Shown here: positions 19,327-22,376 of the stretch, piece by piece
How positions within the stretch are numbered: position 1 is the stretch's first letter
Layout: each line of letters starts with the position of its first letter
Assembly: GCA_016195565.1 (NCBI GenBank)
Contig: JACPZK010000030.1
Coordinates: 1-51,972 of the forward strand
From: Nitrospirota bacterium
Lineage (GTDB): Bacteria; Nitrospirota; Thermodesulfovibrionia; Thermodesulfovibrionales; UBA1546
Length of the DNA stretch: 51,972 bases
Direction of reading: 5' to 3'
The notes under the pieces: generated by a model
Database searches by the model: none
Seen by the model: only the letters and a program-made list of their open reading frames with translations
What the model was told of the DNA's origin: nothing
Program-made: the position numbers and the translations under genes

Positions 19327-19785
19327 ATGTATATCGTATACATCAGCATAGGTTCAAATCTCGGAGACAGGAAAGAGAACTGCCGACAAGCAATAAAGCT
19401 GATTGAGAAAAACGGGATTGCTGTTAGGAAACAATCGCGCATGTGTGAGACAGAACCGTGGGGAGTCAATGACCAGCCGAAGTTTATTAATATGGCAATT
19501 GAGGTTGAGACAGATAAAAAGCCTGAAGAGCTTCTCGTGATTCTGAAAGAGATAGAGAAAGAGATTGGCAGAACAGAGACAACCAAATGGGGACCCCGCG
19601 TAATTGATTTAGATATTCTTTTTTACGATGATTTAATCCTTAAAACTCCAGACCTTGAAATCCCCCACCCTCTCCTTCAGGAAAGAGATTTTGTCCTGAA
19701 ACCCCTTTCCGAAATTGCACCGGACAAAAGACATCCTGTGACAGGGAAGACCGTAAGAGCGATGCTTGCAAACCTTAAAGCATAA
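19327..19785 (+). CDS. folK: 6-hydroxymethyl-7,8-dihydropterin pyrophosphokinase
   Basis: 152 residues, normal length. FolK passes pyrophosphate from ATP to hydroxymethyl-dihydropterin in folate synthesis. It has the IGSNLGDRKENCRQAI start, ETEPWGVNDQPKFINMAIEVET, the catalytic GPRVIDLDILFYDD motif and PHPLLQERDFVLKPLSEIAP. No other folate gene is adjacent. Its last about 80 bases, together with about 60 bases of downstream DNA carrying a promoter, are repeated at 20390-20530 and 21148-21285. Confidence 0.96.
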   Translation: MYIVYISIGSNLGDRKENCRQAIKLIEKNGIAVRKQSRMCETEPWGVNDQPKFINMAIEVETDKKPEELLVILKEIEKEIGRTETTKWGPRVIDLDILFYDDLILKTPDLEIPHPLLQERDFVLKPLSEIAPDKRHPVTGKTVRAMLANLKA

Positions 19786-19845
19786 TTTTCTTGACTCAAC
19801 TCTCTGAATTCTCATAAAATTCTCTTAAAAGATGCATCTCGTATA
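19705..19845 (+). repeat. folK 3'-end repeat, copy 1 (in the intact gene)
   Basis: The last part of folK plus about 60 bases of downstream DNA (TTGACTCAACTCTCTGAATT and on to TAAAATTCTCTTAAAA). Two diverged copies follow at 20390-20530 and 21148-21285, each in front of an unrelated gene module. Confidence 0.88.
19791..19820 (+). promoter_or_regulatory. Sigma-70-type promoter of folK 3' repeat, copy 1
   Basis: TTGACT, 18-base spacer, TAAAAT, 33 bases before the DUF4258 gene start. The same hexamers and spacing recur in copies 2 and 3, although the spacers have diverged. Confidence 0.65.
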
Positions 19846-19852
19846 AAATATA

Positions 19853-20125
19853 ATGAAAACATTACAGAAAATTCGGCAAAAGGTTATAGAAAAGGACTAC
19901 TACCTTTCCGATCATGCAGAAGAAGAAATGCTGGATGACGAGCTGGAAAGAATAGATATTGAAAATGCTATACTTAAAGGAATAATAGGAAAGAAACTAA
20001 CCGAAGACATGCGTGGAACGAGATATAGAATTGAAGGCCCTGCAAGAGATGGTAGAATTATTCATGTGGTATGCAGGTTTAAAGAGCATGGCAATCTGAT
20101 TCTTATAACGGCCTACGCTTTATAG
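19853..20125 (+). CDS. DUF4258 protein, probable toxin of a two-gene module
   Basis: 90 residues: LSDHAEEEMLDDEL near the start, IENAILKGIIGKKLTEDMRGTRYRIEGPA, then IIHVVCRFKEHGNLILITAYAL. This is the DUF4258 fold, which is related to RelE/MqsR-type RNases and usually precedes a zinc-finger antitoxin of the YgiT/MqsA type, as here. Toxin activity is inferred from the family and neighbour. No Shine-Dalgarno is visible before the ATG. Confidence 0.82.
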   Translation: MKTLQKIRQKVIEKDYYLSDHAEEEMLDDELERIDIENAILKGIIGKKLTEDMRGTRYRIEGPARDGRIIHVVCRFKEHGNLILITAYAL

Positions 20126-20134
20126 GAGGAAATT

Positions 20135-20356
20135 ATGATTTGTGAATTTTGCGGAGGACAAACAGCAAAAAAGAAAGTTAAAAGGCAGCATTGGCTTCAT
20201 CGGCGGTTGTATATAATTGAAAATGTTGAGGCCGAAGTCTGCTCTGAATGCGGTGAAAGATATTTTCACGCAAAAGTACTTGAGGGAATAGACGGTATTC
20301 TTGAAGCCGCACATACTGTTAAGGAAAAGTTGGAAGTAGAAGTTGTTAGTTTATAA
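20135..20356 (+). CDS. YgiT/MqsA-type zinc-finger antitoxin-like protein
   Basis: 73 residues with two CxxC pairs (CEFCGG near residue 3 and CSECGERYF near residue 37) forming the zinc-binding domain of YgiT/MqsA-like proteins. A short helical C-terminal tail follows; the full helix-turn-helix domain of MqsA is absent, so it is a short version. It lies 9 bases after the DUF4258 gene with its own ribosome-binding site (AGGAGGA). Confidence 0.85.
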   Translation: MICEFCGGQTAKKKVKRQHWLHRRLYIIENVEAEVCSECGERYFHAKVLEGIDGILEAAHTVKEKLEVEVVSL

Positions 20357-20389
20357 GCAGGGGCTGAAAGGAAGAGTATGAAATCTCTT

Positions 20390-20530
20390 AAAACCGCTTT
20401 CAGAAATTGCTCCTGACAAAAAACATCCTGTGACTGGGAAGACAGTGAAGGAGATGATTGAAAACCTTAAAGCATTATTTTCTTGACTCATTCCTCCCAA
20501 TTCCCCTAAAATCCTCTTAAAAAGTGTATA
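20390..20530 (+). repeat. folK 3'-end repeat, copy 2
   Basis: Diverged copy of the folK 3' end: GAAATTGCTCCTGAC, AAACATCCTGTGACTGGGAA and AAAACCTTAAAGCATTATTT match the gene end, followed by the downstream TTGACT...TAAAAT stretch. It has no start codon of its own and is a gene fragment. A second, short TA module (20613-21133) follows. Confidence 0.88.
20483..20512 (+). promoter_or_regulatory. Sigma-70-type promoter of folK 3' repeat, copy 2
   Basis: TTGACT, 18-base spacer, TAAAAT, 101 bases before the antitoxin gene at 20613. Confidence 0.6.
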
Positions 20531-20612
20531 TAGATATAGAAAACCATGTTAGGTTTACAAAATTATCAATAATTGCAATAATAAAGTCATAAATCTTTGA
20601 GGAGGTTGTAAA

Positions 20613-20831
20613 ATGCCTACAGATACAAAGCAGATATTAAAAGAGGCATTGGAATTGCCGGTAATGGAAAGGGCAAGTCTTGCAGACCATCTTTTGTCCA
20701 GCTTAGATCAGCCTGATGAACACATAGACTCTCTCTGGCGCAAAGAAGCTGAAGATAGAGTTAATGCCTACCAGTCCGGTAAAATCAGGGCTCTCTCACT
20801 TAAAGAAGTTCTATCAAAATACGGGAAATAG
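20613..20831 (+). CDS. Addiction-module antitoxin (TIGR02574-type)
   Basis: 72 residues: KQILKEALELPVMERASLADHLLSSLDQPDE followed by LWRKEAEDRVNAYQSGKIRALSLKEV. This is the typical short antitoxin of the 'putative addiction module component' family, which pairs with ParE/RelE toxins. It has a good ribosome-binding site (GAGGAGG) and its TAG stop overlaps the GTG start of the toxin (TAGTG). Confidence 0.9.
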   Translation: MPTDTKQILKEALELPVMERASLADHLLSSLDQPDEHIDSLWRKEAEDRVNAYQSGKIRALSLKEVLSKYGK

Positions 20832-21133
20832 TGGAAATAAGATTTCTTGAGATAGCGCAAATAGAACTTGACGAAACTATTGAATATTACAATTCTGAAT
20901 CTCCCGGGCTGGGAGATTCTTTTTTGGTGGAAACGCTAAATACTATTGAGCGAATCAGGCTTTTTTCAAAGGCTTGGCATCCCTTCAGCAGCACTACCCG
21001 CAGATGTCAATTGCGTCGCTTCCCTTACGGAATTATCTATCAGATACTGAATACGGAAATTCTTATTGTTGCAGTTGCCAATTTGCATAGAAACCCGGAC
21101 TATTGGCAAGACAGGATAAAAGAATCAACCTAA
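20831..21133 (+). CDS. ParE/RelE-superfamily toxin
   Basis: 100 residues starting at a GTG that shares one base with the antitoxin stop. It has the ParE pattern: FLEIAQIELDETIEYYNSESPGLGDSF, the two-helix N-terminal part, then CQLRRFPYGIIYQI and ILIVAVANLHRNPDYW with the terminal arm. The stop codon is part of ACCTAAC (21128-21134), the exact reverse complement of GTTAGGT at 20548-20554. The pair is thus bracketed by 7-base inverted ends, as expected for an integron-type cassette. Confidence 0.9.
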   Translation: MEIRFLEIAQIELDETIEYYNSESPGLGDSFLVETLNTIERIRLFSKAWHPFSSTTRRCQLRRFPYGIIYQILNTEILIVAVANLHRNPDYWQDRIKEST

Positions 21134-21147
21134 CAAAACATTTGTGC

Positions 21148-21285
21148 GAGATTGCTCCTTATAAAAAACATCCTGTGACAGGAAAGACTGTGAAGGAGAT
21201 GCTTGAAAACATTAAAGCATAATTCTCTTGACTCAACTCCCCGAATTCCCCTAAAATCATTCAAAATGTGCATGTAGACATAAAA
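21148..21285 (+). repeat. folK 3'-end repeat, copy 3
   Basis: Third copy of the folK end (GAGATTGCTCC, AAAAACATCCTGTGACAGG, ATTAAAGCATAATTCTCTTG) plus the downstream promoter stretch. It precedes the small membrane-protein gene at 21320. Confidence 0.88.
21228..21257 (+). promoter_or_regulatory. Sigma-70-type promoter of folK 3' repeat, copy 3
   Basis: TTGACT, 18-base spacer, TAAAAT, about 60 bases before the start of the small membrane-protein gene. Confidence 0.6.
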
Positions 21286-21319
21286 ATAATGTTAGGCAGA
21301 TAATAAAGGAGAATTATAG

Positions 21320-21643
21320 ATGACATATCTCGTTTGGTTTTTTTTCATCGGTGCAGCAATCTTAGAGGTTGGCGGTGATGCGGTTATTCGTAAGGGACTA
21401 CGCGGAAGCAACCTAATTATCATAATGATAGGATGCGCCATGTTGGGTTGTTATGGAATAGCTGTCAACATGGTGAAATGGGATTTTTCAAAATTGCTCG
21501 GAGTCTATGTCGCAATCTTTGCGCTGATAAGCATATTGTTTGGGCGATTCCTGTTTAAAGAAAATATACCAAATACGACTTGGGTTGGATTGATAGTTAT
21601 AATTTGTGGAGCAATGATAATCCAGTTTGGAAATAAAATATAG
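21320..21643 (+). CDS. Small multidrug-resistance-like four-TM membrane protein
   Basis: 107 residues with four hydrophobic segments (about 3-20, 30-50, 58-77, 87-103), the size and layout of SMR/DMT transporters. The Glu in TM1 (ILEVGGDAVIRKG) sits where SMR proteins have their proton-coupled Glu, and GDAVIRKG resembles the YnfA/SMR TM1 loop. The substrate is unknown. SMR genes are common integron cargo. An attC-like site lies directly downstream (21684-21774) and GTTAGGC, the usual cassette-boundary core, lies at 21291-21297. Ribosome-binding site: AAAGGAG. Confidence 0.8.
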   Translation: MTYLVWFFFIGAAILEVGGDAVIRKGLRGSNLIIIMIGCAMLGCYGIAVNMVKWDFSKLLGVYVAIFALISILFGRFLFKENIPNTTWVGLIVIICGAMIIQFGNKI

Positions 21644-21683
21644 TCACATACCAGTAGAGGAAACTTTAAAATTGCTTAAGAAT

Positions 21684-21774
21684 GCATAACAAATTCATCC
21701 AGCCGACAGGGAATAACGCTTTTTTGTTATCCGTCCCAAGGTTTGTGGCCCGGTGGCTGATGACGGCGTTACGA
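21684..21774 (+). other. Integron attC-like recombination site
   Basis: About 91 bp that fold like attC: outer GCATAAC ... CGTTACG with the TAAC/GTTA core pair, an unpaired spacer (AAATT / ACGGC), then CATCCAGCC pairing with GGCTGATG with one extrahelical base. A variable region with its own hairpin (ATAAC/GTTAT) forms the tip. It follows the SMR-like gene. No integrase gene lies in the window. The core after GTT departs from the GTTRRRY consensus, so the site may be inactive or only attC-like. Confidence 0.6.
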
Positions 21775-21788
21775 AAGGAGAGACTACA

Positions 21789-22376
21789 ATGAAGATATTT
21801 CGCTTTGGTTTATTATTTCTGCTGCTTGCCTGTATCACCATTAGTGCTGAGGCTCAAACAAATTCATACCGCCATCCTGCAACCGGACTGATAGTCCCTG
21901 ACAGCGTGGAAGGGATTGTGAGAGGCGATGTGAAAGATTTTGAGGGGACAAATCCCGGACTGGGCGTAAGCGTGGCGTATGACAGGCCCGGCATTACAAC
22001 AACAGTATACATATACACCTTTGGTTTCAAATCCATTCCCAGTGACCTCTTATCCCCTACTCTCAAAAATCACTTTGCCCAAGTCATACAGGATATATAC
22101 GAAGTGGAAAAACGCGGATATTACAAGTTTGTAAAAAAGACTGCGGAGGGAATTACCTTTCTTAGAACAGACAAAACAGGCCCGCAGGCATTATCCGCAT
22201 CTTTCAGCTATGTCCAGAATGGAGTAGAACGCTTGTCAAAGGTCTATCTGCTGGGACACAAACAGCATTTTGTGAAGATACGATTCACATATGACAAATC
22301 AGTGCAGGCTCAGGTAGAAGAAAAACTGACTGCATTTCTTAATGCGATGGCTGATATGATTGAGGGGAACTTGTAG
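21789..22376 (+). CDS. Exported protein of unknown function
   Basis: 195 residues from the ATG at 21789 (ribosome-binding site GAAAGGAGAG). The signal peptide MKIFRFGLLFLLLACITISAEA could be cut by signal peptidase I after AEA or, less likely, lipidated at the LLAC cysteine. The mature part (YRHPATGLIVPDSVEGIVRGDVKDFEG, VAYDRPGITTTVYIYTFGF, FVKIRFTYDKSVQAQVEEKL) looks like a single alpha/beta domain. I do not recognise the family. It abuts the attC-like site and is convergent with hisH, with no bases between the stops. Confidence 0.75.
   Translation: MKIFRFGLLFLLLACITISAEAQTNSYRHPATGLIVPDSVEGIVRGDVKDFEGTNPGLGVSVAYDRPGITTTVYIYTFGFKSIPSDLLSPTLKNHFAQVIQDIYEVEKRGYYKFVKKTAEGITFLRTDKTGPQALSASFSYVQNGVERLSKVYLLGHKQHFVKIRFTYDKSVQAQVEEKLTAFLNAMADMIEGNL

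Follow-up and report, generated by a model that had tools for sequence, protein, structure and literature searches.

Introduction

An integron is understood as a single platform (intI, attI and the cassette promoter, Pc) that feeds a single array, of which the first cassettes alone are expressed. The locus described here raises the question of how gene cassettes are held behind folK, at a place where no integrase gene adjoins them. The window that we analysed has 51,972 nucleotides and is the whole of contig JACPZK010000030.1 in a 2.30 Mb draft genome of a Nitrospirota bacterium (G000), the nearest relatives of which are metagenome-assembled Nitrospirota of the Thermodesulfovibrionales. Comparison of sequences indicates that the cluster very probably consists of cassettes at three attI sites in succession, every one of which has its own Pc, and that intI is absent alongside. 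All of the parts are of integron kind, and their arrangement appears to be new. The features are listed below in their order along the contig.

19327-19785, + strand: folK (HPPK), intact, 152 aa (Pfam PF01288, E 2.7e-42); its 3' end is repeated twice downstream
19785-19856, + strand: Pc-attI copy 1 (R1); attI model 56.9-58.1 bits, promoter match 10/12
19852-20361, + strand: mobile module behind copy 1 (Pfam)
19853-20125, + strand: DUF4258 toxin-like gene (Pfam, over the cut-off)
20135-20356, + strand: MqsA-antitoxin-like gene (Pfam, below its cut-off)
20386-20475, + strand: displaced folK 3' end in R2; codons 123-152, 80% amino acid identity
20478-20552, + strand: Pc-attI copy 2 (R2); crossover 20548|20549, attI model 69.5 bits
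20549-21137, + strand: parDE cassette body, TTAGGT...ACCTAACAAA; R'' box at 21128-21134, attC cut after ACCTAACAAA
20613-20831, + strand: ParD-like antitoxin gene
20831-21133, + strand: ParE toxin gene (Pfam PF09720 and PF05016 matches cover the ParD-ParE pair)
21138-21219, + strand: displaced folK 3' end in R3, from about codon 121
21222-21295, + strand: Pc-attI copy 3 (R3); crossover 21291|21292, attI model 71.8 bits
21292-21768, + strand: cassette with an SMR/YnfA-like gene at 21320-21643 (Pfam UPF0060/YnfA, 27.3 bits, cut-off 24.9)
21684-21774, + strand: attC of the YnfA cassette; R'' GCATAAC, crossover 21768|21769, followed by TTACGAAAGGAG of the ancestral site
21789-22376, + strand: native gene, which lies directly behind attI where the site is empty (G006)

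Results

A first-pass annotation of the locus had taken GTTAGGT at 20548-20554 and ACCTAAC at 21128-21134 as the two ends of a gene cassette around the parDE pair, and both motifs are indeed found there. Exact pairs of this type, 200-900 bases apart, occur once per strand in the window, and 1.75 are expected in random windows of the same dinucleotide composition. Because the inverted 7-mer pair is at the level of chance, it was rejected as evidence, and the case had to rest on comparison. In other genomes of the order, the homology with parDE starts at G|TTAGGT (20548; range of starting positions, 20547-20553) and ends just after ACCTAAC (21134; end of the best match, 21140), which supports the two motifs as cassette ends. 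Bordered by G|TTRRRY and RYYYAAC, parDE occurs in differing contexts in G005 (contig C1), G001 (C17) and G002 (C2); it sits behind the attC of another cassette in G001 and G002, and it carries a proper attC (ACCTAACAAATCACTATAGCGGATTCGCC TGC GGCGAACCGCTGATTTAAG...) in G005. The R''/L'' and L'/R' stem of the true attC in G005 is missing from the window copy, which is cut just after R''. In place of its own attC, downstream of the ORF, ACCTAACAAA is joined to a segment composed of the folK 3' end, Pc and attI, an organization of the delta-attI type.

The motif GTTAGGC, reported at 21291-21297 ahead of an SMR-like gene, is also present, and G|TTAGGC (21291) forms the left border of the last cassette. 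According to Pfam, the gene encodes a small membrane protein of the YnfA/UPF0060 family, and homologues of the gene occur elsewhere. The proposal that 21684-21774 has the layout of an attC proved to be sound. Homologues of this site are found in many genomes, and the attC family (16 sequences from relatives, collected by DNA similarity) has a stem of 15 pairs, 9 of which have changed on both sides, with 89% of the cells paired. The covariation score of the stem is 0.404, compared with 0.136 for shuffled sequences (0 of 500 reach 0.404) and a maximum of 0.143 when the partners are slid. Moreover, two conserved unpaired bases occupy the extrahelical positions, C and A on the strand shown (G and T on its complement). 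With a covariance model of the family, the site, which is among the training sequences, scores 87.8 bits, and the stem covaries independently of this model. A failure of attC models to match would have spoken against the first-pass annotation. DNA-energy folding of the single attC yielded a z-score of -0.8, which is not significant; therefore, the claim rests on covariation and homology, and these show a true attC at the end of the last cassette.

The cassette reading stands, but the first-pass annotation overlooked three 144-nt direct repeats (19694-19837, 20386-20529 and 21131-21274, spaced 692 and 745 bp apart). Each of these diverged copies contains the 3' end of folK and the promoter TTGACT-18-TAAAAT and terminates in (A)ATG, and the first of them is folK's own end. 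Also overlooked was the separate copy of attI and the cassette promoter ahead of each cassette. The description "small cassette group away from its integron" is correct for the cassettes and incomplete for the locus, which has three attI-plus-promoter copies with folK 3' duplications. Because the cassettes stand behind these copies, they do not form an attC cluster that lacks a dock. The three copies score 57-72 bits with the attI model. In R1, which has the promoter TTGACT-18-TAAAAT, the core end AATG is followed by A and the G|TT is lost; the folK repeat of R2 may start near codon 115. An Rfam search of the region matched no relevant family.

The complete intI of the congener G001 (C17) is preceded, divergently, by TTTTTCTTGACAGAACCTACAATATTCCCTAAAATCTATCAAAAAGACGCATGCGGCATAAAAAATAATG|TTAGC, and this intI-side attI aligns with the folK-downstream site with a score of 79, whereas the best of 300 shuffles reached 35. 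The homology covers approximately 77 bp, through the leader GACGCATGCGGCATAAAAAATAATG up to the crossover. Two attI-model matches outside the training set (G008 C222 and G015 C54) lie divergent from decayed remnants of the cognate intI. The alignment shows that the segment behind folK is a homologue of the attI/Pc beside intI in G001. An upstream direct repeat that is present beside intI is missing from the folK copies. Other attI sites of the order (e.g., that of G004 C220) were tried and are not homologous, as would be expected from the different types of intI.

In G006, the site behind folK is empty, and attI runs straight into the next gene (AATG|TTATGAAAGGAG, GTAATG|TTATGAAAGGAGAGACTACAATG). 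The same gene in G000 is preceded by ...GCG|TTACGAAAGGAGAGACTACAATG, which is the right end of the YnfA cassette after its attC. At the same place, G001 has another cassette, with a lipoprotein gene, that begins with G|TTAGGC, and G005 has another that begins with G|TTAGCC. The occurrence of differing cassettes at G|TT in several species indicates that cassettes have been exchanged at this exact base, and the comparison of the empty site in G006 with the filled sites in G000 and G001 shows that they were inserted at the G|TT of the folK-downstream site. Cassette-type movement at these borders, the lack of which in related genomes would have spoken against the first-pass annotation, is therefore seen both here and in the attC contexts of parDE in G005, G001 and G002. 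By homology and position, the sites behind folK are solo attI sites without intI that hold integron cassettes.

A sequence-only profile of Pc-attI gave 64 matches in 14 of the 16 family genomes searched; in G000, it found 17 sites at E <= 0.1, 13 of which are among the 64 tabulated matches. These 16 genomes were also scanned with the attC covariance model, and the attC within 2.5 kb of each attI match were counted. An attC lies downstream on the same strand of 17 of the 64 matches, and the three control positions (the opposite strand downstream, and either strand upstream) have 0, 0 and 0, with 0.30 expected. The 17 sites take in the three window copies (with one attC) and the integron of G001, so 13 come from other places; the model places an attC behind just one-quarter or so of the matches. 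The complete family member G009 has two marginal matches only (E 0.068), which argues against a housekeeping promoter. Alignments and attC positions together show that the attI-Pc unit is dispersed in G000 and its relatives, with cassettes on the correct side. A home-made search for R''/R' downstream of the dispersed sites left most of them unplaced, and the covariance model was used instead.

The intI-attI spacer is kept at some sites (C32, C5 and C10 of G000; C17:53807 of G001), and others begin approximately 9 nt ahead of the -35 box and are preceded by unrelated sequence. We also considered the units as promoter cassettes with a left G|TT and rejected this idea, since the upstream conservation stops at that distance from the -35 box and there is no common left border. 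In a distant genus of the order (family f13, genus g18), the genomes G167-G172 have 2 to 6 dispersed Pc-attI-like sites each, which suggests that dispersal occurred more than once. Solo Pc-attI sites also lie directly behind an mqnA-like gene in G138 (C150, L168/L194), where a choloylglycine-hydrolase-like cassette gene follows G|TTAGGC, and directly behind a cobalamin adenosyltransferase gene in G136 (C173, L169/L193).

As the first-pass annotation stated, no integrase is seen on the contig: intI was not found in the window. No intI lies next to attI in the window or, for the G001 type, in G000, where the search for the cognate intI returned just two C-terminal ends of intI genes of a different type, both at the start of a contig. 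These near-identical ends (C5:1-154 and C26:1-154; L039 and L040) are followed by prmC and by a plsC-like gene, and at least two integrases of this type may be missing from the assembly. G001 has a complete cognate intI; in G004 the gene is broken by stops, and G006 keeps only a scrap of it. The attI sites may therefore outlive their integrase. Among the loci examined, intI stands beside Pc-attI only in G001 C17 and G128 C34, and an intact cognate intI adjoins one of the 64 matches.

The DUF4258-MqsA module behind copy 1 is a sharp-bordered block of 0.5 kb that recurs at 89-92% in G015, G011, G010 and G014. It lies between genuine attC sites in G010. In G015 (C123, L173, after 58085) and G011 (C38, L174), a bare attI core that lacks Pc (TATATCGCATGCGACATAAAAGATAATG|TTA) lies directly behind it, and in these two genomes it is a natural cassette of the delta-attI type.

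Discussion

The three copies are 80-83% identical among themselves (R2-R3, 83%), and the comparison with other genomes shows that R2 and R3 are each closest to the folK-attI of a different species: R2 to that of G003 (91%, 954 of 1000 bootstraps) and R3 to that of G004 (89%, 774 of 1000). Because R2 and R3 are nearer to different species than to each other, they were probably stacked by horizontal exchange and not by copying in place, and a recent in-place duplication was dropped for the same reason. In G003, the same parDE|folK junction is found: attC breaks off after ACCTAACAAA, and folK takes over near codon 121, with AAA in common. The left end is nearer codon 115 in R2 and at about codon 121 in R3; the join in folK is thus not site-specific, and site-specific integration into folK was also rejected.

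We propose that an integron integrase, acting in trans now or formerly, inserted cassettes into the solo attI sites, and that the stack would have arisen when relatives whose folK is followed by different cassettes exchanged DNA. Such an exchange may have combined folK-side homology with an illegitimate join at the 3-nt AAA between the attC of parDE and folK. A stack built in this manner would let each cassette keep first-in-line access to a Pc. In the genomes searched, copies of the folK 3' end occur only at folK loci or at one contig start in G014. This genome belongs to another genus, and two separate contigs of it (C145:3-83, L049; C311, L050) carry the folK 3' end with the same RHH antitoxin behind it; stacking behind folK may be recurrent. 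In G003 (C41, L044 3700-5320), the displaced folK 3' repeat is interrupted by an insertion that carries a transposase, and an RHH antitoxin gene lies behind the insertion.

Alternatively, IntI itself could have built the stack by inserting circular cassettes of the delta-attI type, with folK3'-Pc-attI in the place of attC, and this is a real possibility against which we incline. The order attI-parDE-(folK3')-attI matches attI-ORF-delta-attI, which is excised and inserted by IntI1 (PMC12901181), and the bare delta-attI core behind DUF4258-MqsA in G015 and G011 points the same way. However, no parDE-folK3'-attI unit was found away from a folK locus in the genomes searched, and R2 and R3 begin at different codons of folK (about 115 and 121), so there is no fixed crossover in folK. 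A series of simple tandem duplications at a single locus, the copies of which then acquired different cassettes, would account for direct repeats 692 and 745 bp apart, but it is hard to reconcile with mutual identities of 80-83% when R2 and R3 reach 91% and 89% with G003 and G004, or with a parDE|folK3' junction that G003 shares, and we consider it improbable. Least probable by a little is that the folK-downstream element is an ordinary conserved promoter, with cassettes there by chance or by non-classical attG insertion: cassette insertion by IntI at attG sites is known, as reported in papers citing the original work (PMC11023631, PMC12444791, PMC12901181), and the element contains a good predicted sigma-70 promoter, but the homology with the intI-adjacent attI through GACGCATGCGGCATAAAAAATAATG to the crossover, the recurrent insertion at the same base in several species, the 17 versus 0 attC and the marginal matches in G009 all speak against this explanation.

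Beyond the stack that we attribute to exchange, the dispersed sites may constitute a distributed integron, a proposal that we judge to be evenly balanced. Minimal Pc-attI docks would have spread to many chromosomal places (approximately 13 in G000), one integrase, often later lost, would have served all of them in trans, and many cassettes would have a promoter immediately in front of them instead of lining up in a single array. If true, many cassettes could be first in line simultaneously and could survive the loss of the integrase, and cassettes far from any integron would be accounted for. Integron finders, which look for intI and attC, would miss such solo attI docks. In the literature searched, the scope of which left out most subscription journals, we found no report of attI sites without intI in tandem or dispersed over a chromosome.

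Among known systems, a CALIN is a cluster of attC sites without an integron integrase, for which IntegronFinder 2.0 has a default threshold of two attC (PMC9024848). The locus resembles a CALIN in having cassettes with attC and no neighbouring intI; however, the attC model finds one attC in the window, and not at least two within a few kb, and attI and Pc, which the CALIN definition disregards in the case of attI, occur three times. The attG sites of Loot et al. (2024), as described in citing papers (PMC11023631, PMC12444791, PMC12901181), are neither attI nor attC. They share with our case the insertion of cassettes away from the integron platform, whereas the folK-downstream site is a homologue of attI with a Pc.

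Delta-attI-type cassettes are known from class 1 and class 2 integrons, e.g., attI1-ORF-attI1, and the origin of attI-bearing cassettes has been called largely unknown (PMC12901181). As in those cassettes, attI flanks the ORF on both sides in the window, and attI sequence replaces attC right after the gene. In contrast, the present case is chromosomal, far from intI, in Thermodesulfovibrionales and built on an unrelated attI sequence, and the replacing segment includes Pc and the folK 3' end. Stacking of the delta-attI type bears on the source of attI-bearing cassettes. The sedentary chromosomal integron, with its intI-attI-Pc platform (e.g., G001 C17), has a homologous attI and Pc, the G|TT crossover and attC cassettes in common with the locus. 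It differs in that the site in the window has no intI and in that there are several docks per genome instead of one platform.
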